The notes beneath the pieces were generated by a model. The model searched no databases and was not told the origin of the DNA. It saw only the letters and a program-made list of their open reading frames with translations. Of a DNA stretch of 31,806 nucleotides, positions 1 to 31,619 are shown in pieces; the first letter of the stretch is position 1, and every line of letters begins with the position of its first letter. The DNA lies in IMG/VR virus record IMGVR_UViG_3300026078_000070, positions 1-31,806 of that record; one strand, 5' to 3'. Origin of the DNA: a virus. Position numbers and translations under genes: made by a program.

Positions 1-72
1 TTCATTCCGCGCAGCGTCGAAGACGTGGTGACGTGGTTTGATCGCGGCTGTCCGTGTGTGAAATATGTCTGA
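1..72 (+). CDS. C-terminal end of an unknown gene (partial)
   Basis: Frame 1 is open from the first base of the window and stops with TGA at 70-72, giving the last 23 residues of a protein that begins outside the window. The tail contains a Trp-Phe-Asp stretch and a Cys-Pro-Cys motif six residues before the end. Its stop overlaps the helicase start by 8 nt (ATGTCTGA), the same kind of junction that follows the primase gene, so it very probably belongs to the same replication operon. Too little is visible to assign a function. Confidence 0.6.
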   Translation, partial: FIPRSVEDVVTWFDRGCPCVKYV

Positions 73-1504
73 GGACTACATCCCCAGGCCGTATGCCGAG
101 CTGGCTACGAACTTCATACTGGACACCCAGCGCTGCGCTCTTTGGGCAAAGCCTGGCATGGGTAAGACGGCGATCGTTTACAGCGTGCTAGAGATCCTGC
201 GCCTGGCATCATCGCGCTTCTTCCCGGCGCTCGTGATTGCGCCGAAGAAAGTTTGCAACATAACATGGCCTGCCGAACAGCGCAAGTGGAAGCAGTTTGA
301 GCATTTGCGCGTCGTAAATATCGCAGGGGATGTTGACTGCCGGCGCATGGCGCTCCAGACTCCAGCTGACATTTACTTGGTGAACTTCGAAAACGTAACA
401 TGGCTCGTAAACCAATTTGGGAGTACTTGGCCCTTCAAGATCCTCATAGTCGACGAAGCGACGAAATTGAAGAATTTCCGCACGAAGCAGGGCGGGGTCC
501 GTGCCGGTGCCTTGGGTCGGATTGTGGACCATGTAGGGCGTTTGATCGAGCTGACCGGGACGCCAGCGCCGAATGGTCTGAAGGATCTTTGGGGCCAAGT
601 TTACTTCATCGATAAAGGGCACCGGCTGGGAGACAGTTACAATGCGTTCCTCAAGCGCTGGTTCATCAAAGAAGCTTACACACTCAAGATCATCCCCAAA
701 GCCAACGCCGAAGCCGAAATATATAAAAAACTCTCAGATTGCACTCTGGCGCTCCGCCCGGAGGATTGGTTCGATCTTAGAGCACCCGTTCATACTGTCC
801 GCACGGTTGAGCTGCCTGATGCTGCGCGTAAGCTCTACAACAAACTCGAACGCGACATGTTCGCCGAGCTGCAGGCTGAAGCGTCCAAGCACGAGATAAC
901 CGCCCCCATCGCACTGACTCTCACGACCAAGCTGTTACAAGTCGCTGGGGGTGCGGTGATTGACGTCGAGAAGCAATGGGCCAAGGTCCATGACGCCAAG
1001 CTCGACGAGCTGGAAGAGTTGATTGACGAGCTGAACGGCGAGAACGTTCTCGTGGTGTACAACTACGTTCACGAGTGGGAACGCTTCAAGGAGCGCTTCC
1101 CCCACGCGCGGCGGTTTGTCAACGAGAAAGATGAAGCCGACTGGAACGCCGGCAAAATCCCCTTCATGGCGATCCAACCGCAGTCAGGCGGTCACGGGAT
1201 AAGCTTGCAACATGGCGGCCGTTGCATTATCTTTTTTACCAATACCTTCAATTTGGAGCTTCGCCTCCAAGTGATCGAAAGATTGGGGCCGACTCGCCAG
1301 GCTCAATCAGGTTACGATAGGTCGGTCTTAGTATATGACATCGTCGCGTCGAACACAGTCGACGAAGAAGTGCTCTGCGCTCTGACCGAAAAAATGACCG
1401 TACAGGATGCACTCATGCTAGCTCGCTCGCGCCGCGGAACTCTCCATAGTGCCATTGGCACTAAAACCGACGAATTCGCAGACCTTCTCGGCGCCCTGGC
1501 GTGA
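65..1504 (+). CDS. SNF2-like superfamily 2 DNA helicase/translocase
   Basis: A 479-residue, two-lobe SF2 ATPase. Visible motifs, in order: Walker A GMGKT at residues 31-35; motif Ia VIAPKK near 57-62; a DEAT box (D130-T133) preceded by a hydrophobic strand; motif III LTGTPAPNG at 163-171; and, in the second lobe, a QSGGHGISLQ motif V followed by a QVIERLGPTRQ motif VI. This is the layout of small phage SNF2/DEAD-like helicases, which remodel DNA or clear it of bound protein during phage replication. It starts at ATG 65 inside the end of the upstream gene, and its TGA overlaps the GTG of the primase gene, so the two are translationally coupled. The exact substrate cannot be deduced. Confidence 0.88.
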   Translation: MSEDYIPRPYAELATNFILDTQRCALWAKPGMGKTAIVYSVLEILRLASSRFFPALVIAPKKVCNITWPAEQRKWKQFEHLRVVNIAGDVDCRRMALQTPADIYLVNFENVTWLVNQFGSTWPFKILIVDEATKLKNFRTKQGGVRAGALGRIVDHVGRLIELTGTPAPNGLKDLWGQVYFIDKGHRLGDSYNAFLKRWFIKEAYTLKIIPKANAEAEIYKKLSDCTLALRPEDWFDLRAPVHTVRTVELPDAARKLYNKLERDMFAELQAEASKHEITAPIALTLTTKLLQVAGGAVIDVEKQWAKVHDAKLDELEELIDELNGENVLVVYNYVHEWERFKERFPHARRFVNEKDEADWNAGKIPFMAIQPQSGGHGISLQHGGRCIIFFTNTFNLELRLQVIERLGPTRQAQSGYDRSVLVYDIVASNTVDEEVLCALTEKMTVQDALMLARSRRGTLHSAIGTKTDEFADLLGALA

Positions 1505-3876
1505 GCTTCGGCGAGTACGTCGAGCACGGCTGGGCACTGTGTCGCATCCGGCCTGGCACCAAGGCCCCGACGCCTGAGGGTTGGCAGCGCCAGGAAAATG
1601 CTGTACGCAGTCCACAGATTGCGTATAGCTTGCTGGCCGCAGGCCTAGTCCACGAGTGGAGCGGCACCTGTGCAATCGACATTGACGACTGGGATGTCGC
1701 CGAAGCATACCTTAAAACGCACGGTATCGACCTTAGTGCACTGTTTATGGCGCATGACGCGGTACAGCTCCTCAGCGGGAAGCTGGGTCGGGGGAAGCTC
1801 CTCTATCGCCTCGAAGTGCCGCTTCCGACGATCAAGCTGGCCCCGTATGAGGGTCCGGTTGACGAGCAGACGGGTAAGCCGAAGAAGTACAAGGCCCTGG
1901 AGCTGCGTTGTGCCGGCGCCCAGGACGTCCTGGCGCCGTCCATTCACCCAGAGCTGGGGACGCCGTATTTCTGGCAGTATGGCGATCCGGTCATGGGGCA
2001 CTGGTCGAACCTGCCGCCGCTGCCGGCTGCATTACGGGCGCTCTGGCAGACGCAGACTGGGGGCGCACCGTCGGCCAGCGATCCGGCCAAAGATGCCCGC
2101 GGGCTGAACCTGCGCGAGTTGGCCGAGCTGATTATCAAACGCGATCCCGACGACTACGAAGAATGGATCAAGATCGGCCAAATCCTTCACCATGAGACCC
2201 AAGGCTCGCGGGATGGGTTCCAGCTGTGGGATCGCTGGAGCCGCCAGAGCGATAAGTACAGCGATGCGAAGACACAGACGTGGACGCGCTGGAATGGCTT
2301 CGGGCAGAACGACGGGACCGCGCACGCCGCTACCGTAGGACAACTCATCCAAGAGCGCGTGGCGGCGCCCACTGAGTTTGCCCTTGCCGAGCCGGTACGC
2401 GATCCCGAGGAGCCTGAGGACACCGGCCCGACGCGAGAGATTGATGCCGTTCTGCGCCCGCGCGTGGTGTACCTGCTGGACCAGCGTCGGTACTATCACA
2501 AGCCGCTCCCCAAGGGGCACAAAGGGTATATGGCAGGGCTCGACGAAGTAGGTGCTCAGGCGCTTCAGGGCGAAGCGTTCGATGTGTTCTACACGCCATA
2601 CATGCCTATCCGTGAAGTGACTGTGACGGCGAAAGACGGTAGCAAGCGGACGCAGACGGTAGTCGAAGATCCGCGCAAATGCGTGAAGCAGAGCCGGCGC
2701 ATCGAAAAGGTGAACGGGATCGGCTTCCATCCCGGCGCCGGCCGAATCTTCGTCGAGGAGGACGGCAATAGGATGTACAACGAGTACTCTCCTGTGCAGG
2801 TTGAGCCGCTGCGCCCAAAGCCGCATGAACTGGACGCCTGGGCGTTCCTCTGCTCGCGGATCGAGGACGATACTTTTCGCAGCTGGTTGATGCGCTTTTT
2901 CGCGCACATGGTCGCCAAGCCCGGTGTAAAGATTCAGAGCGCTCCGCTGCTGGTTTCGGATACGCAGGGCACCGGGAAAACCACGTGGATGCAGACAATT
3001 CCCCAGCTGCTCCTGGGCGAGAAGTGGGTCAATGAGATCTCATCCGAACAGCTCGCCAAAACGTTCAACTCCTACCTGGCGCGCACGTGGTGGGTGACGA
3101 TAGAGGAGCTGAAGACGGACGGTCCACGCATGGATCGTATCGCCATTGCGAACAAAATGAAGCCCTGGATCACTAGCAAAACGATCCCCGTCGAGTTCAA
3201 GGGGCTCGACGTCTACAAGATCTACAACCGGGTGCAGCTTGGCGCCTCATCCAACTTCCGCGACACAATGCAGTTGGACAATAGCGACCGACGCTGGGGC
3301 GTCGGGCACGTCGTGGAGCACGCCATGACGGAGGCGGAGAAAAGCGGACTATTCAAAGACTTCCTAGATACTCCGCGGGCTCCCGGCGTTGTTCGTTGGC
3401 TCATTCAGCAAGAGAACCTAACCGGCTTTTCTCCAACAGCACTGCCGCCGTCGACCGCTGAAAAGCGCTCCATGGTGAGTTTTGGCTACGGTCAGTGGGA
3501 GACGAAAATCGCTGAGGCCATGGTGGACGGTACGACACCGTTTGACCGGGATGTCTTCGCGCTCGAGGATGTGCAGATGGTCCTGCGCAGCATGAACGCG
3601 GAGCTGTCCCGAAAGCGAGTAGGAACGCTGCTCACCCGCGCCCCGTTCAACGCCACGCGCAAGAGCACTGGCACCAAGGTCCTCTACTGCTGGCGCAACC
3701 AGAGTTTCTGGGAGACGCAGACATGCTATGCCTGGGCATCGCATCGCGAAACGGCAATTCGCCCGCTGGGTGCGCTGAGTGCCGCTGTTCCTGTTGCAAT
3801 TCGAGGCGCCGCGGGGGAAGATGAAACCTCCGAGGATACCGATTTTTCCGACCTACTAGGGGCTGTAAATGTCTGA
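1501..3876 (+). CDS. Primase-polymerase fused to SF3-type helicase
   Basis: A 791-residue fusion for replication priming and unwinding. The N-terminal 180 residues look like an archaeo-eukaryotic (Prim-Pol) primase: a DID acidic pair at D60/D62, a GRGK motif near residues 96-99 and the LELRCAGAQDVLAPSIHP block near 133-150. A middle segment (about 203-270, with EEWIKIGQILHHET and WSRQSDKYS) matches a PriCT-type primase C-terminal domain. The C-terminal half is a D5/DUF5906-type helicase: Walker A QGTGKT at 489-494, a Walker B-like WWVTIEE ending at E535/E536, sensor N585 and an arginine pair at 597/598. The start is GTG, overlapping the helicase stop (GTGA). It is probably the phage's main replicative primase-helicase. 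Confidence 0.9.
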   Translation: MSFGEYVEHGWALCRIRPGTKAPTPEGWQRQENAVRSPQIAYSLLAAGLVHEWSGTCAIDIDDWDVAEAYLKTHGIDLSALFMAHDAVQLLSGKLGRGKLLYRLEVPLPTIKLAPYEGPVDEQTGKPKKYKALELRCAGAQDVLAPSIHPELGTPYFWQYGDPVMGHWSNLPPLPAALRALWQTQTGGAPSASDPAKDARGLNLRELAELIIKRDPDDYEEWIKIGQILHHETQGSRDGFQLWDRWSRQSDKYSDAKTQTWTRWNGFGQNDGTAHAATVGQLIQERVAAPTEFALAEPVRDPEEPEDTGPTREIDAVLRPRVVYLLDQRRYYHKPLPKGHKGYMAGLDEVGAQALQGEAFDVFYTPYMPIREVTVTAKDGSKRTQTVVEDPRKCVKQSRRIEKVNGIGFHPGAGRIFVEEDGNRMYNEYSPVQVEPLRPKPHELDAWAFLCSRIEDDTFRSWLMRFFAHMVAKPGVKIQSAPLLVSDTQGTGKTTWMQTIPQLLLGEKWVNEISSEQLAKTFNSYLARTWWVTIEELKTDGPRMDRIAIANKMKPWITSKTIPVEFKGLDVYKIYNRVQLGASSNFRDTMQLDNSDRRWGVGHVVEHAMTEAEKSGLFKDFLDTPRAPGVVRWLIQQENLTGFSPTALPPSTAEKRSMVSFGYGQWETKIAEAMVDGTTPFDRDVFALEDVQMVLRSMNAELSRKRVGTLLTRAPFNATRKSTGTKVLYCWRNQSFWETQTCYAWASHRETAIRPLGALSAAVPVAIRGAAGEDETSEDTDFSDLLGAVNV

Positions 3877-4090
3877 TCAGATGCCGGAAGGCGTGACCAT
3901 AGACCGCACTGGCGACAAGCCAGTCCGCACCGACAACCGCAGCGTCATGAAGATGCTTCACGACGAGCTGGCTGCGCATTTCGGCGCCAAAGAGCCGACC
4001 GTAAACAGCGGTGGAAAGCGCATGGGGCTCGACGAGGCAGTTGATGAGGCTGTAAAAGGCGCCCCGGCGCCAGGCTCCGAAGAGTACTGA
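3869..4090 (+). CDS. Small hypothetical protein
   Basis: A 73-residue acidic protein with no membrane segment and no recognised domain. It has a conserved-looking core (SVMKMLHDELAAHFGAKEP) that could form an amphipathic helix. Its ATG lies inside the last codons of the primase-helicase gene with the 8-nt overlap ATGTCTGA, identical to the junction at 65-72. This supports real coupled translation. It sits between replication and lysis genes, and its role is unknown. Confidence 0.6.
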   Translation: MSDQMPEGVTIDRTGDKPVRTDNRSVMKMLHDELAAHFGAKEPTVNSGGKRMGLDEAVDEAVKGAPAPGSEEY

Positions 4091-4095
4091 GCTTG

Positions 4096-4644
4096 ATGCT
4101 TGATCCGATCCTGCGGCGGGATATCCAGCAGGCAGAGCGGTTGAAACTCACCGCGTACAAGGACACCAAGGGGTTCTGGACCATCGGCTGGGGGCACAAG
4201 TTGCCGAATCAGGATCATGGCGCCTGGAAAGGGTACACGTGGACTCAGGATATGGCGGACAGCGCTCTACAGGCGGACATCCTCGACGCCTGGAACCACG
4301 CGCAGAAGCTCCCCGAATGGTCGGCACTGGATACACGCGCACGGACCAACGCGCTAGTTGAGTTGGTCTTCAACATGGGTTGCAAAACATGGCTGGACTT
4401 CAAGGATACGAGGAGTGCGATTCGCCGTCAGGACTGGAAATGCGTCTCCGCCGAGCTGAAGGACTCGAAGTGGTACGGGGAAGTACATGCGACGAGAGCA
4501 GACCGGTTGCGCGATTATTTTCTGACGGGCTCCTATCCCCCATCGGTGGCCGGAAGTTTGCTGTATGCCTCCTCGTCATCGGCCTGGCCACATGGCTTTG
4601 TGCCCGCGGCTCGCTCGCTGGAGGATATTGGGTCACAGCCGTGA
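4096..4644 (+). CDS. Endolysin, T4-type lysozyme (GH24-like)
   Basis: A muramidase of about 182 residues that would cleave the glycan strands of peptidoglycan at the end of infection. The T4 lysozyme triad is visible near the N terminus: Glu in QQAER, Asp in YKDT, and Thr in the WTIGWGH strand, with E-to-D spacing of 9 residues as in the family. ATG 4096 is preferred over the adjacent TTG at 4093. There is no signal peptide, so it needs a holin for export. The lysozyme fold ends near the TGSYPP segment (about residue 150). The last 30 residues are low-complexity, and the DNA there also encodes the holin-like protein in another frame, so this tail may be a by-product of the overlap. Confidence 0.9.
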   Translation: MLDPILRRDIQQAERLKLTAYKDTKGFWTIGWGHKLPNQDHGAWKGYTWTQDMADSALQADILDAWNHAQKLPEWSALDTRARTNALVELVFNMGCKTWLDFKDTRSAIRRQDWKCVSAELKDSKWYGEVHATRADRLRDYFLTGSYPPSVAGSLLYASSSSAWPHGFVPAARSLEDIGSQP

Positions 4645-4706
4645 CGTTCGCGGCAGGGTTCTACAAGGCCGCCAACATCGTGGCGACACGGGACGCGCAG
4701 AAGTGA
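4470..4706 (+). CDS. Holin-like two-helix membrane protein
   Basis: A 78-residue protein in the frame next to the lysozyme, overlapping it by 175 nt. It contains a GGRKF motif followed by two hydrophobic helices (FAVCLLVIGLATWL and YWVTAVTFAAGFYKAANIV) and a short charged tail, the form of small phage holin-like proteins. The start chosen is GTG 4470 because AAGGA at 4459-4463 lies 6 nt upstream. An in-frame ATG at 4440 lacks such a site. Its TGA overlaps the next gene's GTG. It would make membrane lesions that release the lysozyme. The function is inferred from topology and position. Confidence 0.65.
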   Translation: MVRGSTCDESRPVARLFSDGLLSPIGGRKFAVCLLVIGLATWLCARGSLAGGYWVTAVTFAAGFYKAANIVATRDAQK

Positions 4707-4834
4707 AAACGGCTGCCGTAGGGCTCCTAATTCTGCTAACCCTCGTCGGCGTTGCATCCTGCGAAATTTCTATTTGGCGGGAATGTCGACAAGCTAATAG
4801 TTGGCTCTACTGTATGAGGTTAATGGATAAATGA
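4703..4834 (+). CDS. Small Cys-containing membrane or lipoprotein-like protein
   Basis: A 43-residue protein starting at a GTG that overlaps the holin-like gene's stop (GTGA) and ending in an ATGA overlap with the next gene. It has a Lys near the N terminus, a hydrophobic helix (VGLLILLTLVGVASC) and a short polar tail with two more Cys residues and aromatic residues. The VASC sequence at the helix end resembles a lipobox, so it may be a lipoprotein; otherwise it is a single-pass membrane protein. Proteins of this shape are common in phage lysis cassettes. The precise role is unknown. Confidence 0.6.
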   Translation: MKTAAVGLLILLTLVGVASCEISIWRECRQANSWLYCMRLMDK

Positions 4835-5049
4835 GCGATGAACCCCTCACATGTGTGTTTTTCGGTGGTCCACTTAACGGTCATGTCCGTTGCGTACCGG
4901 CGAATCAGTACGCGTACCACGCCCGCGCACTGTCGCCGGTAGCGATCCCGTTAACACTTGAACAGGCAATGGCAACTCCCGTAAAGGACGTTCCAATGCA
5001 CCGTTACGAACGAAAACCTGGCACCGCCGTGTTTGTTCACAAGTCATGA
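4831..5049 (+). CDS. Small hypothetical phage protein
   Basis: A 72-residue protein with the FFGGPLNGH motif near its N terminus, which recurs in small phage and bacterial proteins of unknown function. There is no membrane segment. It starts at an ATG overlapping the previous stop and ends in an ATGA overlap with the spanin gene, so it is co-translated with the lysis genes. Its role is not known. Confidence 0.65.
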   Translation: MSDEPLTCVFFGGPLNGHVRCVPANQYAYHARALSPVAIPLTLEQAMATPVKDVPMHRYERKPGTAVFVHKS

Positions 5050-5540
5050 CTGCGCTCGTCGCAATCGCCGCCCTCTGGGCGCGCATCCCAACAAAGGACA
5101 AACTGTATGGAGCTGCTATTCTTGCATGTCTGGTTGCTTTTGGTCTGTACACTCGGCATGAGCGTGCTGTGGGCGCAGCACAAGTTGCGGCAGCGCAGGC
5201 GAAAGCTGCAACAGCTCAAGCGGCACTTGCTACAGCTCGCACGGCAGCGGGACGAACGAATGCAACAACTGCTGAGGTGAGATATGTTTCGACGATCAAC
5301 GCTATTATTCCTGACAGCCCTCACTTGCTCGTGCTCGACTCCGAGGCCGCAGCTGCAGCAGTGTGTGCAGCAAGCGATCCCCCAGCAGGCCTTCCAGCCG
5401 CCGAAAGCTCAGTCGAGCGTTCGCGCGACATTGGCCCCGAACTCGACAAAATCGGCCGAGACAGCGACGCCCAAGTAGTTTTCCTCCAGAACCTTCTGAA
5501 ATCCTGCGTCGACATCGGCGCATGCAAGGTGACTAACTGA
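5046..5540 (+). CDS. Rz-like inner-membrane spanin
   Basis: A 164-residue protein with one N-terminal membrane helix (YGAAILACLVAFGLYT, about residues 21-36), a long Ala/Gln/Lys-rich coiled-coil stretch (about 43-75), and a C-terminal segment (IGPELDKIGRDSDAQVVFLQ) of the kind seen in phage Rz-like lysis proteins. It would span the periplasm from the inner membrane and, with an outer-membrane partner, fuse the membranes after lysozyme action. It starts in an ATGA overlap and its TGA shares a base with the next ATG. Two further ORFs lie wholly inside it in the +1 frame (5107-5280 and 5284-5478). Confidence 0.75.
   Translation: MTALVAIAALWARIPTKDKLYGAAILACLVAFGLYTRHERAVGAAQVAAAQAKAATAQAALATARTAAGRTNATTAEVRYVSTINAIIPDSPHLLVLDSEAAAAAVCAASDPPAGLPAAESSVERSRDIGPELDKIGRDSDAQVVFLQNLLKSCVDIGACKVTN
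5107..5280 (+). CDS. Nested ORF: one-helix, coiled-coil protein (possible second i-spanin)
   Basis: A 57-codon ORF in the +1 frame inside the Rz-like gene. It has AAAGGA at 5093-5098, 8 nt before the ATG. The product would have a strong membrane helix (LLFLHVWLLLVCTLGMSVLW) followed by a very basic, Gln/Leu-rich coiled coil (HKLRQRRRKLQQLKRHLLQL), which is the minimal design of an i-spanin. It stops 3 nt before the nested Rz1-like ATG in the same frame. The Gln/Arg-rich half could be a frame-shifted echo of the Ala-rich repeat in the outer frame, so coding is uncertain. Confidence 0.4.
   Translation: MELLFLHVWLLLVCTLGMSVLWAQHKLRQRRRKLQQLKRHLLQLARQRDERMQQLLR
5284..5478 (+). CDS. Nested Rz1-like outer-membrane lipoprotein spanin
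   Basis: A 64-residue ORF fully embedded in the +1 frame of the Rz-like gene, the classic lambda Rz/Rz1 arrangement. It has a signal-peptide-like start (MFRRSTLLFLTALTCSC), Cys residues at 15 and 17 as candidate lipidation sites (the lipobox is weak), then a Pro/Gln-rich mature part. GAGG at 5274-5277 (GAGGTGA) lies 6-7 nt upstream of the ATG. It would be anchored in the outer membrane and bind the inner-membrane spanin. Confidence 0.65.
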   Translation: MFRRSTLLFLTALTCSCSTPRPQLQQCVQQAIPQQAFQPPKAQSSVRATLAPNSTKSAETATPK

Positions 5541-7036: not shown

Positions 7037-7605
7037 AACTACCCACTGACCCCAAGGAGCGTAAGCAGCTCCAGCTCTACACGTTCATGTTCAACTATTT
7101 CCCGGATGCCTGGCTCGAGGTCGTCCGCATTGCGCGGCTCGGCAATGAACAACACAATCCCGGCGAGCCGCTACACTGGGCGCGCGGTAAGTCCACCGAC
7201 CAGATGAATGCAGCGTTCAATCACGTGTTTGACTACGGCACCGGCCAGCGCGTGGACTCAGATGGTGGCTACCATCTCGCCAAGGCAGTCTGGCGGCTAA
7301 TGGCGCAGTTGCAGCTCGACGTGGAGCAAGACCAGCGTGACCAGACGGTCCACTGGACGCCGAAGCCGGAACAATATCAGCACAAAGCCGCTGTCGGGGC
7401 TGACCTTACGTATCCGCTCCCGGCGGGCGCTGACGGCCTGGCGCGGGCGCTCCACGCGACTGCGCAAGCTGCAGCAAGTGGTCCATCACGGCGCGATGAT
7501 TCGCAGACGCCGTGGAATCTTGCTGATCGAGCCTTGCATGCAGACGGACCAACTCCTCCCGCGTGGCCACGGTTCCCGCAAGTGCGGCCACCCTCGAAGC
7601 TGTAG
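7033..7605 (+). CDS. dATP/dGTP diphosphohydrolase-like protein
   Basis: A 190-residue protein whose first 100 residues match the phage dATP/dGTP diphosphohydrolase N-terminal domain family: FNYFPDAWLEVVRIARLGNE, then QHNPGEPLHWARGKSTDQ (about 40-57), then a DSDGGYHLAKAVWRLMAQLQ helix. These are MazG-like all-alpha NTP pyrophosphohydrolase-type domains acting on purine deoxynucleotides. It starts in an ATGA overlap with the membrane-protein gene. Beyond about residue 125 the sequence is Ala/Pro/Arg-rich and lies antisense to the - strand gene 7406-7708, so the C-terminal third may be unstructured read-through. Confidence 0.65.
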   Translation: MKLPTDPKERKQLQLYTFMFNYFPDAWLEVVRIARLGNEQHNPGEPLHWARGKSTDQMNAAFNHVFDYGTGQRVDSDGGYHLAKAVWRLMAQLQLDVEQDQRDQTVHWTPKPEQYQHKAAVGADLTYPLPAGADGLARALHATAQAAASGPSRRDDSQTPWNLADRALHADGPTPPAWPRFPQVRPPSKL

Positions 7606-15722: not shown

Positions 15723-18334
15723 ACGTTCGGATCCTGCGTTATGTAAACGTTGGTGGCTTCCCACTCCCAGGCCTGGCCCGCACTGAATGTCAGGGAAATC
15801 TGCAGGGACGGCGCCGTGAGGGGGATGGGGATCATACCCACTTCTGGCAGCGTGTCGCCATTTACCGTTATCCCGATCGTTTGTAGGGAAGAGTTCGTTT
15901 GATCAAAGCCAACTGCGATCGTTACGGCGCCCGTACACACTATGTCGAGACCATCGAGCGTCTTGTCTAACCCCACGACGCCGAAGTCGAGGAATGGCCA
16001 GACAATCTGGCCCGTGAAGGTCACATGCGTGTTGATGTCTACGATGTCATCGTAGAGTGCGTCCTCACTGAACTCCCACACGTGGTCGTTCTCCGTGCGC
16101 AGAAAAAGGACTCCGTTCTGCACAGTCCAGTCGATCATGTTCTCTGGGAACACATACCGAGACCAGCTCATGTCAGCTTGACCGCCATTGAGCGTCAGGA
16201 CAAATGCCTGTGGTCCAAAGAAAAGCATGTATTGCCCGGTGCCGGGATAGAACAGCCCACGCGGCTCGGAGCCGGCCTTGATCGCGGCTTTTACCAGTGG
16301 ATCAACTTGTTTGCCGAATTGGCCCGCCTGGAGGTTTGTGCTTGCCCCAGCGATGCCGAGCGATCGGATGCCAACTTGGGTCAGAAAGACAAAATCGTTT
16401 TGGCACGGCTGGCCCGCCTTCGGATAGTGAGAGCCCACAGGTGAGGCATCCAGCAGCGCCATGTTCGCCGGATCCTCATCAACCTGCCAGACTTGGTAAC
16501 CCAGACTGTTGAACGCGGCAAGATTGGACCGATAGAGACCGAGCATCTCGCACGGTTGCGAACCGTATGTGTTGAGGCCGAAGGGGATGAAACCTGCGTC
16601 ATTGTCACTCGTCCAGTCGAGGCAGTTGGTTGTCGCGCAGAACCGAATTATGTCGTCATCCGCGGCAAACACCTTGCTCGCGGCGATGGCAACTACCTTA
16701 CTATGCGGAGCTTCAGCCACGCTGCGGTCTGCGCACGTCCATGTCATGTTGCCGTCCGCCACGGTGTTACCGACCGTGGTCGGCCAAGTCGGCTCCGTGC
16801 TACCCGTCTTCATGATGGGCAGCGCTTCCCAAGTTATGATGGATGTTCCAATCGCTTCCCAGGTAACGGTATTGTCTACTACCGTGCCGCCTTCAACCGC
16901 CGGCCAGATTGGTTCCGTACTACCCGACGTTCCGACAGATGCTTGGATCGCTTCAAACAGGAATTGCGAAACCGATGCGGGGGTCTCCAAGTCCCAAGAC
17001 AGTAGATCCGCATAGCCAAAGCCCGGCGGATTGGTCCCGGTGGCAAATACGATCTCTGCTTTCACTTTCGTCGCATTGGCGGGCGCGTTGCCGGTCACAC
17101 TCGCTTCCCGATATCCAGAACCCTGTTGCGATGCTCCAGAGGTCCGGCTTATCAACGTCGAGCCGCTGTCATACCACGCCAAGTTCAAATGGATCGCCAA
17201 ATTGGCGCCGCTGTTGTTTGGATTCACTTGGCACTTTGCAGTGACGCTCTGCCCCGCCGTCACGGTGCCGAATGTCTGCATGCTGGCCGTGCTCGTCTGG
17301 TGATTGAGCGTAGCTTGCATGACGTGCGAGCCTTGATAGGCGTGCGTCGGGTCGATAATGATCGAGACGTTCGGATCGCCTGAAGGCGATGAGGAGTAAT
17401 CAAATCCTGTGTCGCCGGCCTCGAAGTCTCCGTTCGGAATGGCGTTGATAAACGCGCCCTGCCCCGTTCCAGGCCTAACTACTGCGCCTTTCTGATAGAA
17501 CGTTCCTGCCGCCCAAGTTGTAATCGTCGAATCTGCCGTCGGAGGTGGGGCGGTTGTCGTAGGTGCATTCAAGTTCGAAGTGAAAACGCCCGCATTTCCG
17601 TATCGATCTGTAATCGTTCGCCCCGGTATTGGCGTGGCGCTCGATGCACTTGTACTAGCCGCGCTCGACGTATCAAAATCGCCGAATTCCTGAATCTGCG
17701 CATTCTCAACAGCAGGCCATACCGGTTCCGTTGCCCCAGTGTGAGGTGAGTCTCCAAGTACGGCGATGGCTTTGAACATGTAGCCGTTATAAACCGTGGG
17801 CTCAAAAATATCGTTCACGGCTACAACGACATTCGGTTGCCAGAGAGGGTGCGGAGGTTCAAGACGGGTCGCGGCAAAGGCAAAACCGTTGTCGACAGTC
17901 GGTAGGATGTAAGTGCCAAGAAATTCAACAGTATTCGCCGTCCACGTGCCGCCGTCCTGCAGCCAGAAGTGCTGCACTGTTCCGTCGCTGAATTCTGCCA
18001 CCACATATAAAAAACCGAGGTACGGCGCTGCGAAATGAATGCGCGTAATCGTCGAGGCTCGGTTCTGGGGATTGCTCAGCACATGGTCTTCGTACCCTGT
18101 TGGGACAGTAACCGTGGTATCGCTGAAGACGTGGAAATCGCCTCCAAAAGCAACGAGCCCTTTTGTTCCCGTCAACGTCTGTCGGCGATATGTCCCAGGT
18201 CGAACGACAATCGTTTTACCCGCTGTGACATAAGCATTCACCAGATCATAGAGCGAGTTGCGCAGCGCTGCGCCCTTCGTGCGTAGCCGCGTGATGCCGC
18301 CCTGGATTACAGTCAGTGGGATCGGGGCCGTCAC
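15719..18334 (-). CDS. P22 gp10-like tail hub with inserted binding domains
   Basis: An 871-residue protein. GTG 18334 is chosen because it overlaps the upstream stop (GTGA). The C-terminal half reads like podovirus tail-hub/DNA-stabilisation proteins: SKVVAIAASKVFAADDDIIR, then LDWTSDND, LGLYRSNLAAFNSLGYQVWQ, GSHYPKAGQPCQNDFVFLTQ. The N-terminal half carries extra modules: three copies of a G(A/S)TEP-WP motif (near residues 200, 471 and 511) and a jelly-roll-like domain at about 299-450 (NGDFEAGDTGFDYSS, YQGSHVMQATL) resembling carbohydrate-binding modules. P22 gp10 is about 470 residues, so some 400 residues are additions. It closes the portal channel and may touch surface glycans. Confidence 0.7.
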   Translation of the reverse strand: MTAPIPLTVIQGGITRLRTKGAALRNSLYDLVNAYVTAGKTIVVRPGTYRRQTLTGTKGLVAFGGDFHVFSDTTVTVPTGYEDHVLSNPQNRASTITRIHFAAPYLGFLYVVAEFSDGTVQHFWLQDGGTWTANTVEFLGTYILPTVDNGFAFAATRLEPPHPLWQPNVVVAVNDIFEPTVYNGYMFKAIAVLGDSPHTGATEPVWPAVENAQIQEFGDFDTSSAASTSASSATPIPGRTITDRYGNAGVFTSNLNAPTTTAPPPTADSTITTWAAGTFYQKGAVVRPGTGQGAFINAIPNGDFEAGDTGFDYSSSPSGDPNVSIIIDPTHAYQGSHVMQATLNHQTSTASMQTFGTVTAGQSVTAKCQVNPNNSGANLAIHLNLAWYDSGSTLISRTSGASQQGSGYREASVTGNAPANATKVKAEIVFATGTNPPGFGYADLLSWDLETPASVSQFLFEAIQASVGTSGSTEPIWPAVEGGTVVDNTVTWEAIGTSIITWEALPIMKTGSTEPTWPTTVGNTVADGNMTWTCADRSVAEAPHSKVVAIAASKVFAADDDIIRFCATTNCLDWTSDNDAGFIPFGLNTYGSQPCEMLGLYRSNLAAFNSLGYQVWQVDEDPANMALLDASPVGSHYPKAGQPCQNDFVFLTQVGIRSLGIAGASTNLQAGQFGKQVDPLVKAAIKAGSEPRGLFYPGTGQYMLFFGPQAFVLTLNGGQADMSWSRYVFPENMIDWTVQNGVLFLRTENDHVWEFSEDALYDDIVDINTHVTFTGQIVWPFLDFGVVGLDKTLDGLDIVCTGAVTIAVGFDQTNSSLQTIGITVNGDTLPEVGMIPIPLTAPSLQISLTFSAGQAWEWEATNVYITQDPNV

Positions 18335-19683: not shown

Positions 19684-19847
19684 TTGCGTCCTGTCAAGGC
19701 TTTACCCAGGTCGCCGCCGCGCGTGACTGGAGCGACACCGGATTTCCGTGTTGCGTTGAAAATCTTTGCTGCGCTCGTCTTCGCCGCCTTCAAAGACTCG
19801 CCCTTGGCAACGAGCGAATCACGGATAGCTTCATATCGTGCCGGCAT
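19680..19847 (-). CDS. Small basic helical head/connector-associated protein
   Basis: A 55-residue Lys/Ala-rich protein (YEAIRDSLVAKGESLKAAKT, then AAKIFNATRK), a pattern seen in small phage proteins encoded next to capsid genes. ATG 19847 is fixed by AGGAG 8 nt upstream; a longer in-frame form would start inside the terminator hairpin. It ends in an ATGA overlap with the connector gene. It possibly binds nucleic acid, but the role is unknown. Confidence 0.6.
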   Translation of the reverse strand: MPARYEAIRDSLVAKGESLKAAKTSAAKIFNATRKSGVAPVTRGGDLGKALTGRK

Positions 19848-27506: not shown

Positions 27507-27713
27507 CTATATGTGCTCAAGTACCGCCAGTTTGAGCAGTCGGCAGACATCCTCGTACTGATCGCGAAACTGGCGCCGGTAGCGTCGACGTGTCGCCTTG
27601 GGCACCCAGCTTGGCGACCAGGCCCAGAGGGAGGGGCCGTCGCCCTCCTGGCGGTATAGCAAGACGATGCTCTCGGCCCGCGCTTGTTCGATCAGCTCGA
27701 CTGCACTAGACAT
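27507..27713 (-). CDS. Small hypothetical protein after large terminase
   Basis: A 68-residue basic protein starting at ATG 27713 with AAGG 6-7 nt upstream; it overlaps the terminase stop by 8 nt (ATGTCTAG). Helical N terminus (SSAVELIEQARAESIVLLY), a Trp-rich middle (SLWAWSPSW) and a very basic helix (RRRYRRQFRDQYEDVCRLLK). It may bind DNA or RNA. Not recognised otherwise. Confidence 0.6.
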   Translation of the reverse strand: MSSAVELIEQARAESIVLLYRQEGDGPSLWAWSPSWVPKATRRRYRRQFRDQYEDVCRLLKLAVLEHI

Positions 27714-29325
27714 ATCGCACCTTGGGTATGTCCTCTTCACCTTGGTACTCTACCCAATCCCCCGAGAACGGCACGAGAAGCTTCGGGTCGTCCTGCGGCG
27801 CCTGCCCGTTTTGCACTATGTCCTGTACCCGGCCGGCAAGACCTGCCGCGTCCGCGTGGTCATCCCACCTCGAGGCGGGCATTGTCGCGAGCTGCATGTA
27901 CATCTTCTCAGCGATCGGCGCGATCTTGCCGACGTTCGGCAGATGCACGATGCCCGTCGAGGCCAGAGCCTTGAACGAGGCACACTTGGCGACTTTATCC
28001 TCACCGGAATACATCGGAGTCAACACAACGCGCCATGCGCCGCGCTTGCGCATCGTTTTGTTAATGGACGGCGCGATGGAGTTATGTATGACGCCCTTTT
28101 CGTCGAACGCTTCGCGCACGGTGTTGTCGCGGCATAGTTGGAAAAACGCCGGGATAGACTTCTCAGTGTCTACTTGGCCCTCGAACGCATCCAGCATATA
28201 CCACTCGCCCAGGTAGTCGATGCCCCAGACGAAGAAGGCGCACCAATCGTTTTTCTGGTCCTCGGTAACAGCCCAGTCAGTCGTACAGAATCGGCGCATC
28301 ATGGAGGGCGGCGGCCAAGTGGAGGGGTCACCCCACTTGAACCAGTCGCGGTTCCAGGCCTCGTTGTTTATGGGCTTGGGCCGTTGCTGGTAGAGGGACC
28401 CCCATACGCGCGAACCATCGCGTCCGCCGCGATTCTCTGCCATTTGCCAATGTCTGGCAGGGTAGAACTCTGGCCAGATGTATTCACCGAGCTTGCGGCC
28501 AAGTGGGTCTGACAGAAGTTCGCATTTCGCTTGCAAACACAGCACGCGCCACACCTGGCCGTCTTTGCACAATATGTCACCGCTCTCGCCCTCCCATGTA
28601 TCTGGCAATATGTCGCCGGCCAAGTCGCGCTCATTCCAACGTGTCATAATCAAACCAACACCCGCGCCGGGCAGCAAGCGGCTGCTGATCGTCGCGGCGT
28701 ACTCTTCGCGCACTCGCTTCTGCCGAGCGTCGGAGTCTGCCTCTTCCTGATTCTTCGTCGGGTCGTCAATGAGAAAGAAATTCGCGCGCCGGCCCGTGAT
28801 GCCGCCCAAAATACCAGCAGCAACCAACTCTGAGCCGTTGGATAGGCCCCAGTCGCCAACGGCTTCGCGGACCAACTCGAGCCGCTCATCCCATACCTGA
28901 TACGTCTCATCCTTGCATATCGTCTGGATGCGTCGGCTCTGCACTTCTGCGATGTCATCCGCGTACCCCGTTATGATCCCGCGGTGATTCTTGAACTTCC
29001 CTAGTGCCCAGGCCGAGGCCACGTTGGCGTAACTCGACTTGGCACAGCCAGGAGGTGTAAACGTCATGGTCCGCGCATACGGCACGGTCATGGTGTACTC
29101 CATCTGGTCGAGGATGAGCGCGTGATGCTTCGCCATCAGCATCCGCGCCGGGCCTAGTATGTCCTCGTCGAGGTCCTCGATGGGCGGCACAGGGCAGAGC
29201 GGGATGTTGACTGACAGCGCGAAACTATGCAGATACATCTGCGCGCGCTGTCGTCTCAGCAGCTCAGCCGCGGCTGCCCGCTTGCGCTCCGCTACCGAGG
29301 CGTACTCGACAAACTCATCACTCAC
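27706..29325 (-). CDS. terL: Terminase large subunit
   Basis: A 539-residue packaging motor. ATPase domain: Walker A-like PPGCAKSS at 91-98, Walker B FFLIDDP with D187/D188, and the LIMTRWNERD coupling motif near 225-234. Nuclease domain: first acidic residue D350 in CTTDWAV and a C-terminal WDDHADAAG cluster (D488-D492). It cuts concatemeric DNA and drives it through the portal. The start is GTG 29325, overlapping the glycosyltransferase stop by 8 nt (GTGAGTGA). Confidence 0.93.
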   Translation of the reverse strand: MSDEFVEYASVAERKRAAAAELLRRQRAQMYLHSFALSVNIPLCPVPPIEDLDEDILGPARMLMAKHHALILDQMEYTMTVPYARTMTFTPPGCAKSSYANVASAWALGKFKNHRGIITGYADDIAEVQSRRIQTICKDETYQVWDERLELVREAVGDWGLSNGSELVAAGILGGITGRRANFFLIDDPTKNQEEADSDARQKRVREEYAATISSRLLPGAGVGLIMTRWNERDLAGDILPDTWEGESGDILCKDGQVWRVLCLQAKCELLSDPLGRKLGEYIWPEFYPARHWQMAENRGGRDGSRVWGSLYQQRPKPINNEAWNRDWFKWGDPSTWPPPSMMRRFCTTDWAVTEDQKNDWCAFFVWGIDYLGEWYMLDAFEGQVDTEKSIPAFFQLCRDNTVREAFDEKGVIHNSIAPSINKTMRKRGAWRVVLTPMYSGEDKVAKCASFKALASTGIVHLPNVGKIAPIAEKMYMQLATMPASRWDDHADAAGLAGRVQDIVQNGQAPQDDPKLLVPFSGDWVEYQGEEDIPKVRYV

Positions 29326-30172
29326 TGTCGCGCTGGTCCTGACTCACACCACCCAGCATCTCGGCCGCCGTGACGAGATCCGCCTTGAACACGTGGTCGC
29401 CCGTATGCGTCGTCTTCGTCCACCATGCGAGGTAGGTCTTAAACCCAACATCTGCGGCCCTGGAGCAAAACGCATAATCCTCTGTCAGCCACTCCCACTT
29501 CCCCGGCCGGTCGGCACTCTGCACGACTCGCGTGTTGCACAGGGGTGGGAAGTCCGGGCCGCCGGCAAGCTCCACCTTCGGCGTGCCGCGCGCCGCCAGA
29601 GTCTCGATCACAACTCGCTTGATGACGGTCAGGCCGAAGCCGACGCGTCTTACCGGAACCGCCTTCCGCTCGGTGAGGTCCACGTCATTGCCTGCTGCTC
29701 CTGTGTCGAATGTGAAGACTGCGCCGGCCAGTGCCAGTGCATCGGGCTGTGGATGCGGCGCCAGGGAGGCTTGGCGGGCCGCCCGTTGGATCGCCTCCCA
29801 GTCGTACTTCTTCTGACAGCACACGGCGCCGACAATGGGCAAGTCCGACTCGACCATATCCAGCACGTCCTGCGGGTCGAACCCCTGGTCGCTGTCGATG
29901 AAGATGAGGTCCGTGCCGTCGGTCTTGTACAGGAAGTCGCGCATCATCGTGGTCCGCGCGTGCGCGATACTCGAGTGTCCGATCAACCGGCTCGGCTCCA
30001 TCGGTATGCCGCGCTCCAGGCAGAGCTTCTGGAGTCCGAGCATGCTGCCGTAAAAATTGTCGTGGTAGCCGTGGTGTGCCGGGGTCGCGACGACCAGCCG
30101 ACGCGGCTTGTACATGGCGCCGATGTTAAACGGGCCGGTTGGGTCGAGTGGTTGCATGCCGTAGTTTGTCAT
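29318..30172 (-). CDS. GT-A-fold glycosyltransferase-like protein
   Basis: A 284-residue protein. Residues 24-100 form a nucleotide-sugar-binding half-domain ending in LIFIDSDQGF, with the DxD motif D93-S-D95. A second conserved block has RRVGFGLTVIKRVVIETLA (about 175-193), E231-D232 in LTEDYAF and a His pair in THTGDH (256/260), as in family-2-type GT-A enzymes. It lies between the putative small and large terminase genes in tight ATGA and 8-nt overlaps. It may transfer a sugar to a virion protein, DNA or host glycan; the target is unknown. Confidence 0.7.
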   Translation of the reverse strand: MTNYGMQPLDPTGPFNIGAMYKPRRLVVATPAHHGYHDNFYGSMLGLQKLCLERGIPMEPSRLIGHSSIAHARTTMMRDFLYKTDGTDLIFIDSDQGFDPQDVLDMVESDLPIVGAVCCQKKYDWEAIQRAARQASLAPHPQPDALALAGAVFTFDTGAAGNDVDLTERKAVPVRRVGFGLTVIKRVVIETLAARGTPKVELAGGPDFPPLCNTRVVQSADRPGKWEWLTEDYAFCSRAADVGFKTYLAWWTKTTHTGDHVFKADLVTAAEMLGGVSQDQRDSE

Positions 30173-30579
30173 TGGTCCGCCACTATTGTTTGTAGATCGC
30201 TCATTGAGTATTGCTTCATGTTGCCGCCCTTGTCCTTGACGTCGACGCTGATCGATTTCATCTTCGGTACGCTGAATTGCAGCAGCTCAATGAACAGCTC
30301 GATCGCATCGCGCGGGCGTGGCGCCACGATGAATTTGGAATCGTCGTATGGATCCTTGATGCCGTTGCCAATTTCCTGCAGCCAGCGCTGCACGTTGTCG
30401 ATGTTGCCGTTCACCAATTCGGAGACGCCGTAGCGAATCCGCGAGCGCGTCACTTTATCGATGGCCTGGGTGGGCATCGGTTTGACCGGGGCCGGGAGAT
30501 TGCCCATCAGCGAGCCGAGCATCACGTCTTCTTGGGACATCGTGATATTTCCATCTGTGTGAGCGTATTTTTGATCCAT
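30169..30579 (-). CDS. Putative terminase small subunit
   Basis: A 136-residue protein, or 123 if it starts at the in-frame ATG 30540; neither start has a strong Shine-Dalgarno. Core features: a helical block ELVNGNIDNVQRWLQEIGNG, then RPRDAIELFIELLQFSVPKM, the pattern (repeat helices followed by a leucine-rich oligomerisation segment ending in VPK) seen in several phage small terminases. It is the first gene of the late cluster, right before the large terminase group. No sharp HTH is visible, so the assignment rests on position plus pattern. Confidence 0.55.
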   Translation of the reverse strand: MDQKYAHTDGNITMSQEDVMLGSLMGNLPAPVKPMPTQAIDKVTRSRIRYGVSELVNGNIDNVQRWLQEIGNGIKDPYDDSKFIVAPRPRDAIELFIELLQFSVPKMKSISVDVKDKGGNMKQYSMSDLQTIVADQ

Positions 30580-30721
30580 ACACGTGAGGATATACGTCGG
30601 GCTTGAGGTTTGCCATAACCGTTGAGCCGATATTGGATTATGTTAAGTGAGATATAAAAAGCGGTGAGATTAGCGCGGTCGGCCCGGCGCCCCGCGAATC
30701 TAAGCCGGCCTTTTGCACAGC

Positions 30722-30788: not shown

Positions 30789-30977
30789 GCGAAAAGCTGA
30801 TAGCTGCCTGGGCAGGCTGCATTATGCTCGGCGTAGGACGATTCCTACAGCCTGCATTATGGCGAATAGCGAGCCGCGATTTGACAATATAAATAGCTGG
30901 GAATTAATCGCGATGTGACAATATAAATCAGTTTGACAATATAATTCACTGTGGGTGAAACGCGAAAAGCTGATAGC
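30789..30977 (+). repeat. Direct repeat GCGAAAAGCTGATAGC (two copies)
   Basis: Identical 16-bp copies at 30789-30804 and 30962-30977 (start spacing 173 bp) bracket most of the TTGACAATATAA elements. Between them CTGCATTATG also occurs twice (30817-30826 and 30852-30861), with a perfect GTAGGA-CGAT-TCCTAC hairpin (30833-30848). Confidence 0.75.
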
Positions 30978-31049
30978 GGTTCGCTTGCTGGCCGGGCGAA
31001 AAGCCCTCAGCAATTAACCCTCCGTAATTAGCTCGAATTATATTGTCAA
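30875..31049. repeat. Iteron-like TTGACAATATAA elements (3 direct, 1 inverted)
   Basis: CGCGAT(T/G)TGACAATATAAAT occurs at 30875-30894 and 30909-30928. TTGACAATATAATTC at 30933-30947 has a perfect 15-bp inverted copy, GAATTATATTGTCAA, at 31035-31049. Spacings between TGACA cores are 34 and 18 bp. They read like binding sites for a replication initiator or repressor. Confidence 0.75.
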
Positions 31050-31132
31050 GCGCCACCCCAAGAACGCGCTCGCATCTATAAACGATCAACAGTCGCTCAA
31101 GCCGCTAACCCACTGAAACCAAAGCCCTTTAC

Positions 31133-31174
31133 TACTACTATTTATCTATTGATAGGTTGATTAATCTAGTAGTA
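31133..31174. repeat. Nested operator-like palindromes
   Basis: TACTACTA (31133-31140) and TAGTAGTA (31167-31174) are perfect inverted copies. Between them lie CTAT-TG-ATAG (31146-31155) and the perfect palindrome GATTAATC (31159-31166). They overlap the candidate early promoter, so they may be regulator-binding sites. Confidence 0.55.
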
Positions 31175-31178
31175 TTCT
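31149..31178 (+). promoter_or_regulatory. Candidate early promoter
   Basis: TTGATA (31149-31154, 5 of 6 to TTGACA), an 18-nt spacer and TATTCT (31173-31178, 4 of 6) on the + strand, in AT-rich DNA about 160 bp before the first early gene. It is a moderate match only. Confidence 0.35.
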
Positions 31179-31195
31179 TTAAAGCTCCGTAGCTA

Positions 31196-31219
31196 GCTGG
31201 CCGGTAACTTTTGGCCAGC
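31196..31219. repeat. Hairpin GCTGGCC / GGCCAGC
   Basis: A perfect 7-bp stem with a 10-nt loop downstream of the candidate early promoter. There is no U-tract, so it is more likely a leader-RNA structure or protein-binding site than a terminator. Confidence 0.5.
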
Positions 31220-31235
31220 GATACTTGGGACCGAT

Positions 31236-31329
31236 CTATAAAGAGCAGCTTTTTAACGTCTAAGCTATTGATTCTGCTACTTATAGTTCGGTTTTTTATC
31301 GATCCAACGACAATCCGACCTATAAAGAG
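31236..31329 (+). repeat. Direct repeat CTATAAAGAG (two copies)
   Basis: Copies at 31236-31245 and 31320-31329. The second provides the AGAGG ribosome-binding site of the first early gene; the first precedes no ORF. The repeat may be a duplicated leader or a TATAAA-type promoter element. Confidence 0.45.
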
Positions 31330-31335
31330 GTATTT

Positions 31336-31527
31336 ATGGCGAAGTTAAAAGACATGACCGAGGAACAGCGCGCTATTCTGTATGTGCGGACCAATAAGCA
31401 CATCCCAGGAGCGTTCAGTTACATGCTCGAACAGGGCTACCTAAAGCGCAATCCAGTGAGTAAGGAATGGCACTTAAACGACGCTGGGCACTTGTGGCTA
31501 GAGAAATGGGGAAATTGGAAACCGTGA
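31336..31527 (+). CDS. Small early hypothetical protein
   Basis: A 63-residue protein with a helical N terminus (TEEQRAILYVRTNKHIPG) and a small winged-helix-like C-terminal half (YMLEQGYLKRNPVSKEWHLN, then DAGHLWLEKWG). AGAGG lies 6-7 nt upstream of the ATG. As the first gene after the divergent control region it is a candidate early regulator or host take-over protein; DNA binding is only suggested by fold-like pattern. Confidence 0.65.
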   Translation: MAKLKDMTEEQRAILYVRTNKHIPGAFSYMLEQGYLKRNPVSKEWHLNDAGHLWLEKWGNWKP

Positions 31528-31619
31528 CGCACGTCTCTTTACCCAAGGCTCATCCTGGGGTATCGTCCTAATCACTCAAGCGGCACGGCCCGCAACGACT
31601 GACTAAGGAGCAGCGACAA
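31528..31619 (+). other. Short intergenic gap with imperfect hairpin
   Basis: A 92-nt gap. It contains CCC-A-AGG / CCT-G-GGG arms (about 31541-31558, one mismatch), without a U-tract, and the strong AAGGAG of the next gene at 31605-31610. No ORF. Confidence 0.35.

Follow-up and report, generated by a model that had tools for sequence, protein, structure and literature searches.

A conserved cluster of short repeats in the divergent control region of an uncultured phage encoding a PrimPol-helicase, and its possible role as a replication origin

Introduction

The polymerase of phage NrS-1 starts DNA synthesis at TTTGGTTA or GTG (PMC8718748), and the two TTTGGTTA copies of the NrS-1 genome, one per strand, have been proposed as its origin (PMC7102993; PMC8718748). 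The pRN1 replicon requires a stem-loop for replication, and a stem-loop has also been proposed as the origin of Bordetella phage BIP-1; the domains of the BIP-1 replication protein follow the same order as those of the protein described here (PMC4234260). The alpha protein of P4 joins primase, helicase and winged helix as well, and the ori iterons of P4 provide it with repeated origin binding sites (PMC4234260).

We analyzed a viral contig of 31.8 kb (the whole stretch, hereafter the window), which is classed as linear and is probably a fragment; several relatives measure 44–48 kb, so that roughly a third of the genome is probably missing. Its left end carries a rightward replication module with an SNF2-type helicase (65–1504, plus strand), a PrimPol-helicase (1501–3876, plus strand), a lysozyme and an exonuclease, and its leftward structural genes include TerL (27706–29325), portal, major capsid protein and tail fibre. 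Relatives were collected via the major capsid protein and comprise the near-identical records L008, L009 and L022 and about 30 others. No cultured phage close to the window was found, and the sole match in a search of genome contigs was one short MAG contig.

As in NrS-1, PrimPol, PriCT_2/HBD and an NrS-1-like ring helicase are combined in one protein, and a few copies of a short word starting with TTTG lie on both strands at one genomic place. The word itself differs, being TTTGACAATATAA and not TTTGGTTA; the latter has no copies in the window or in the relatives examined, G018 excepted, and was rejected as the element. The window array also differs in consisting of four copies in non-coding DNA, which are putative sites only, and the window-type module adds an SNF2 helicase and a family A polymerase (seen in G005), whereas an NrS-1-type replicon would have the PrimPol as its sole replicative polymerase.

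With pRN1 and BIP-1 the window shares an AEP primase, an SF3-type helicase and a stem-loop of approximately 100 nt in which the loop diverges but the arms do not; a C-terminal winged helix like theirs is probable in the window protein from a moderate-confidence model. A related helicase gene is moreover common to BIP-1/BPP-1 and the window phage. In contrast to these systems, the stem-loop of the window lies in a divergent control region and not 3' of the primase gene, where no inverted repeats were found (3700–5100), and its arms are copies of the repeated element. The P4 primase differs in being of the Toprim type, and the P4 sequences are unrelated. Operators of the P1 C1 type are short, asymmetric sites that lie at irregular distances and point either way, as in the window array, but the window has no recognisable repressor gene, C1-like or other, the candidate r63 having only 63 aa.

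Organization of the repeat array

The array lies within the only large gene-free gap of the contig (30580–31335) bordered by the first leftward ORF (30169–30579, minus strand; 136 aa), which is TerS-like and holds the TerS position upstream of the TerL cluster, and by the first rightward ORF, r63 (31336–31527, plus strand; 63 aa), a candidate regulator. The divergent units described in an earlier, sequence-only reading are thus confirmed, with gene starts at 30579 and 31336. The 11-mer TGACAATATAA occurs four times in the contig, all within 168 bp of this region, and its reversed control does not occur in the window. Three copies of the element have the exact form TTGACAATATAA, namely copy 1 (30881–30892, plus strand, ATTTGACAATATAAATAGC), copy 3 (30933–30944, plus strand) and the inverted copy 4 (31038–31049, minus strand). 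Copy 2 (30915–30926, plus strand, GTGACAATATAAAT) contains GTGACAATATAA, with one mismatch to TTGACAATATAA, so that all four claimed elements were located. When up to two mismatches are allowed, the whole window holds 6 matches to TTGACAATATAA against 0.75 expected, a number reached by no shuffle.

Other repeats that had been described are present as well: an extended 20-bp pair differing by one base, CGCGAT(T/G)TGACAATATAAAT (95%); two identical 16-mers GCGAAAAGCTGATAGC, one at 30789–30804 (partly kept in G002) and one at 30962–30977 (eroded in both L008 and L009); together with the near-repeat CAG(G/C)CTGCATTATG, found at 30813 and 30848. The 6-bp hairpin can be read from the sequence as a dyad, GTAGGA/TCCTAC (30833–30848); it is flanked by the two CTGCATTATG copies (30817–30861, minus strand), which give leftward, -10-like CATAAT words. 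The dyad core is kept in G002, and CATTATG-type words are also found in G002 and G014. The inverted 15-bp pair is indeed perfect (30933–30947 and 31035–31049), but 87 nt and not 88 separate its arms. Likewise, the non-coding DNA is AT-rich only relative to this genome (approximately 48% G+C vs. 59%). An exact 16-mer search of viral contigs returned 98 matches, mostly chance, with more than one per stretch only in G002, and a search of Rfam gave a chance-level match only.

The start-to-start spacing of the direct copies is 34/18 in the window, 34/26 in L008 and 36/55 in G002. Because of this irregularity the label "iteron", used previously, fits poorly, and the regular, helically phased direct repeats of an iteron origin are seen in none of the three.

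Every element holds TTGACA and TATAA, and copies 2 and 3 would together give GTGACA-19-TATAAT, as might be expected of ordinary host sigma-70 promoters. We reject this explanation as very improbable: the spacer lengthens to 27 in L008, G002 lacks the pairing altogether, no scan match overlaps the array, and the hexamer spacing is neither 16–18 bp nor conserved, in agreement with the earlier remark that ordinary promoter spacing is lacking. The only sigma-70-like hexamer pair of the region, TTGATA-18-TATTCT (31149–31178, plus strand), matches at 9/12 positions, with 1.2 such pairs expected by chance. A conserved leftward promoter-like word, TTAACATAAT (30637–30646, minus strand), stands upstream of TerS; it was read by eye in G002, G005 and G009, with a variant in G015.

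The element also resembles the core of SP6-type promoters, GTGACACTATAG, and asymmetric, independent units in the same direction with variable spacing would suit promoters of a T7/SP6-type single-subunit RNA polymerase. We nevertheless reject these as the least probable explanation of all, as the element has no copies elsewhere in the genome. Neither the window, an incomplete genome, nor the relatives, including contigs of 44–48 kb, gave an RNA_pol (PF00940) match (T7 control, 1e-109), and tblastn with T7 RNA polymerase found no match.

Conservation of the elements in related phages

Absence of the repeats from similar phages had been named beforehand as the outcome that would refute the reading of the array; a search of relatives instead recovered the three direct copies of G002, in unchanged order, and a single copy in G005. 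L008 is approximately 98% identical to the window overall but diverges strongly past 30950 of the region, with insertions and deletions. Copies 1–3 are exact in L008, although copy 3 now starts 26 and not 18 positions after copy 2; of the inverted copy, L008 retains TTGACAATA. Between L008 6690–7059 and window 30946–31320, inside the control region, identity drops sharply from approximately 99% to low values, which suggests recombination or fast change of early control DNA.

In G002, whose TerL is 73% identical, the three direct copies align one-to-one with those of the window in a poorly conserved background, and the ortholog of copy 1 is identical over 19 bp; the inverted copy is absent. G005, for which the 12-mer was an a priori test, has one exact copy of the element at the equivalent place, within CGCGATTTGACAATATAA, which equals window copy 1 over 18 bp. 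The looser form TTDACAATAW was found in G000, G002, G005, G014 and G016, in each case confined to the divergent region, with 3, 3, 2, 2 and 1 occurrences in the five phages against approximately 0.02 or fewer expected in each. As this form was defined after part of these sequences had been seen, the matches in G014 and G016 are suggestive only. The second 16-mer and the fourth, inverted copy are unkept beyond close kin. Judged by these comparisons, the elements are real, evolutionarily constrained putative protein-binding sites.

Among more distant relatives other repeats occupy the equivalent place: TTGACAC-N-GTGTCAA-type dyads and TGCCGTCAGAG in G003, ACTTATACGCG in G009 and G015, TGCTACCG in G014 and GTAACCG in G016. 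Some of these lineage-specific repeats beat shuffles weakly. Unrelated repeats have taken the place of the element in G003, whose major capsid protein is approximately 79% identical, and also in G009 and G015. In the divergent region of G003 (L069; 1065–1160 and 1230–1460), still a close relative, TTGACACGGTGTCAA-type dyads and a strong nested hairpin, CTGACGGCACTTTGCCGTCAG (z -8.65), stand in place of the window's element. A control region that stays in place while each lineage carries a different repeat family is useful for following co-change of an initiator or regulator and its sites.

This replacement bears on whether the elements bind a host factor used by the phage, such as a nucleoid protein or the host initiator. 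The phages in which the motif recurs may have hosts in common, and nucleoid proteins typically bind in AT-rich surroundings. By eye, however, there is no match to a DnaA or IHF consensus, and since the motif is replaced in the close relatives G003, G009 and G015, a phage-encoded partner suits the data better; we consider a host factor unlikely.

AT-rich patch and stem-loop

The most AT-rich 60-bp patch of the contig (31128–31187, 0.75 AT, TACTACTACTA...TAGTAGTA) lies in the divergent region and is a candidate unwinding element, so that the array has the adjacent AT-rich region of an iteron origin. The 60–200-bp patch with the highest AT content falls in this region in all eight related contigs (8/8). 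The word TACTACTACTA (31129–31139; TAGTAGTAGTA on the other strand) resembles the DnaA-trio motif of bacterial origins; it is also found in L008 and partly in G002.

Copies 3 and 4 provide the 5' and 3' arms of a potential stem-loop of 126 nt (30931–31052) with a 15-bp perfect core and a structured loop (z -5.05, folded as single-stranded DNA); an inverted arm of 15 bp was reached by none of 400 shuffles. The outer stem is kept in both L008 and L009: L009 keeps the stem-loop, and L008 keeps 13 bp of the outer stem with a diverged loop. G014 has an independent 10-bp inverted pair, ATTTAACAAT/ATTGTTAAAT, equalled in 1 of 400 shuffles. The stem-loop of G002 was rejected as conservation of the inverted pair, as an inner hairpin accounts for its strength and the arm pairing element with element was no better than chance in the shuffle test. 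The best stem-loop reaches z ≤ -3.47 in 8/8 regions vs. 18% of 28 control segments, an excess that may in part be generic to regulatory DNA because the controls are mostly coding.

Candidate binding proteins

The replication protein of 791 aa contains Prim-Pol, PriCT_2 and DUF5906/VapE-like helicase domains, and its residues 419–601 match the C-terminal region of NrS-1 polymerase (PDB 6K9C, 6LRB; E 5e-8). Its C-terminus was modelled with moderate confidence as a probable winged helix; the best fold matches are winged-helix repressors, none of them significant. This protein is the candidate initiator. The C-terminal identity of the PrimPol to that of the window is 37% in G009, which lacks the motif, vs. 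39% in G005, which has it. As PrimPol similarity shows no correlation with the motif and does not predict it, the binder is inferred. Clustering of genes across whole genomes, meant to find a binder whose presence tracks the motif, yielded nothing clean, being swamped by shadow ORFs. The family A DNA polymerase of G005 is encoded in a part of the genome that is missing from the window.

The elements may instead be operators at which a small transcription factor of the phage, for instance r63, times leftward late and rightward early promoters; we hold this to be possible, though somewhat less probable than the origin discussed below. The array does lie between divergent units, with leftward CATAAT words close to copy 1, and irregular distances between sites are compatible with operators that act independently. 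The first gene downstream, r63, is predicted to encode a helix-helix-hairpin-helix mini winged helix (pLDDT 83; fold matches insignificant), and its only homologue outside the window lineage (39–40% identical) is in G002, whose array comes closest to that of the window. Homologues are missing, however, from G005, G014 and G016, which all keep the core motif, and r63 lies approximately 400 bp from the array. In addition, the array overlaps neither the sole sigma-70-like pair nor the conserved TTAACATAAT word, and the element is asymmetric, whereas small winged-helix repressors usually bind dyads.

A possible replication origin

We tentatively favor the reading of the array as recognition sites for a phage-encoded DNA-binding protein, most likely the core of a replication origin combined with a control region. 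Among single readings an origin ranks first, since sites, AT-rich patch and stem-loop occur together with a PrimPol whose known relatives use a specific word. The PrimPol-SF3-type helicase (1501–3876) would dock on the TTTGACAATATAA sites, the inverted pair formed by copies 3 and 4 would extrude as a stem-loop with one site per strand, and the adjacent AT-rich patch would melt. The PrimPol domain could then lay the first strand on each template, to be extended by other phage replication proteins, such as the family A polymerase seen in G005.

Against an origin stand the failure of PrimPol similarity to track the motif, the irregular spacing, the lack of conservation of the inverted copy and stem-loop in G002, and the absence of TTTGGTTA. 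Cumulative GC skew singled out the region in not all genomes and was set aside as evidence, being inconsistent and confounded by the divergent genes. AT-rich, dyad-rich DNA is equally expected of a promoter region, and a regulatory switch, which is a serious alternative, accounts almost equally well for most of the data; the region may serve both functions. Of the earlier proposal of an initiator-bound origin or a repressor switch, the origin is favored by the conserved elements, AT-richness, stem-loops and NrS-1-like PrimPol-helicase; of the parts listed there, the second 16-mer and, beyond the closest kin, the inverted copy lack conservation.

A bolder and rather doubtful extension would be that in this uncultured phage family the PrimPol-helicase starts DNA synthesis at a clustered, lineage-specific word of 12–15 bp on both strands of a melting stem-loop, the word being swapped between close relatives (TTTGACAATATAA, TTGACAC-dyads, ACTTATACG, TGCTACCG, GTAACCG) while the origin position stays fixed. 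If the origin reading itself is right, a group of uncultured PrimPol phages would gain a precisely placed origin, and the NrS-1 principle of a polymerase that self-starts at one defined word would reach a genome in which such words clearly cluster.

Other signals in the window and its relatives

A second repeat pair, CCGAT/CCTATAAAGAG, brackets the start of r63 (31231–31245 and 31315–31329), and the matching area of G002 contains GATCGATAAA words (TCGATAAA four times). After r63 there is a GTGAC(R)..GTCAC-type dyad, GTGACGCACGTCTC (31524–31537), and the early region of L009 has dyads of this type, GTGACACCCGTCAC, before two further early genes.

In five relatives a perfect sigma-54-type -24/-12 word, TGGCACGNNNNNTGCA, marks the beginning of the early unit, immediately ahead of the first or second gene: L068 (G005) at 7455, L071 (G009) at 43736, L072 (G014) at 17394, L070 (G015) at 37732 and L073 (G016) at 19739. 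These are five of eight exact matches among 18 records; the word is absent from the early-unit start of the window and G002. TGACAA...TTGTCA-type dyads lie just upstream of it in four of the five relatives and were not seen in G005; the GTGAC(R)..GTCAC dyads may be their counterpart in the window lineage. It would be unusual for the early genes of a phage to be controlled by host sigma-54, and a literature search for such control found nothing.

The window also encodes the N-terminal domain of a dATP/dGTP diphosphohydrolase (PF18909; 6952–7605). PurZ is absent from the ten records examined, which show no sign of a Z-genome, and the idea was dropped. Finally, the distant relatives L071 (G009; 1986–2060) and L072 (G014; 2822–2896) carry a leftward tRNA-Trp(CCA) gene at the junction of structural unit and control region.
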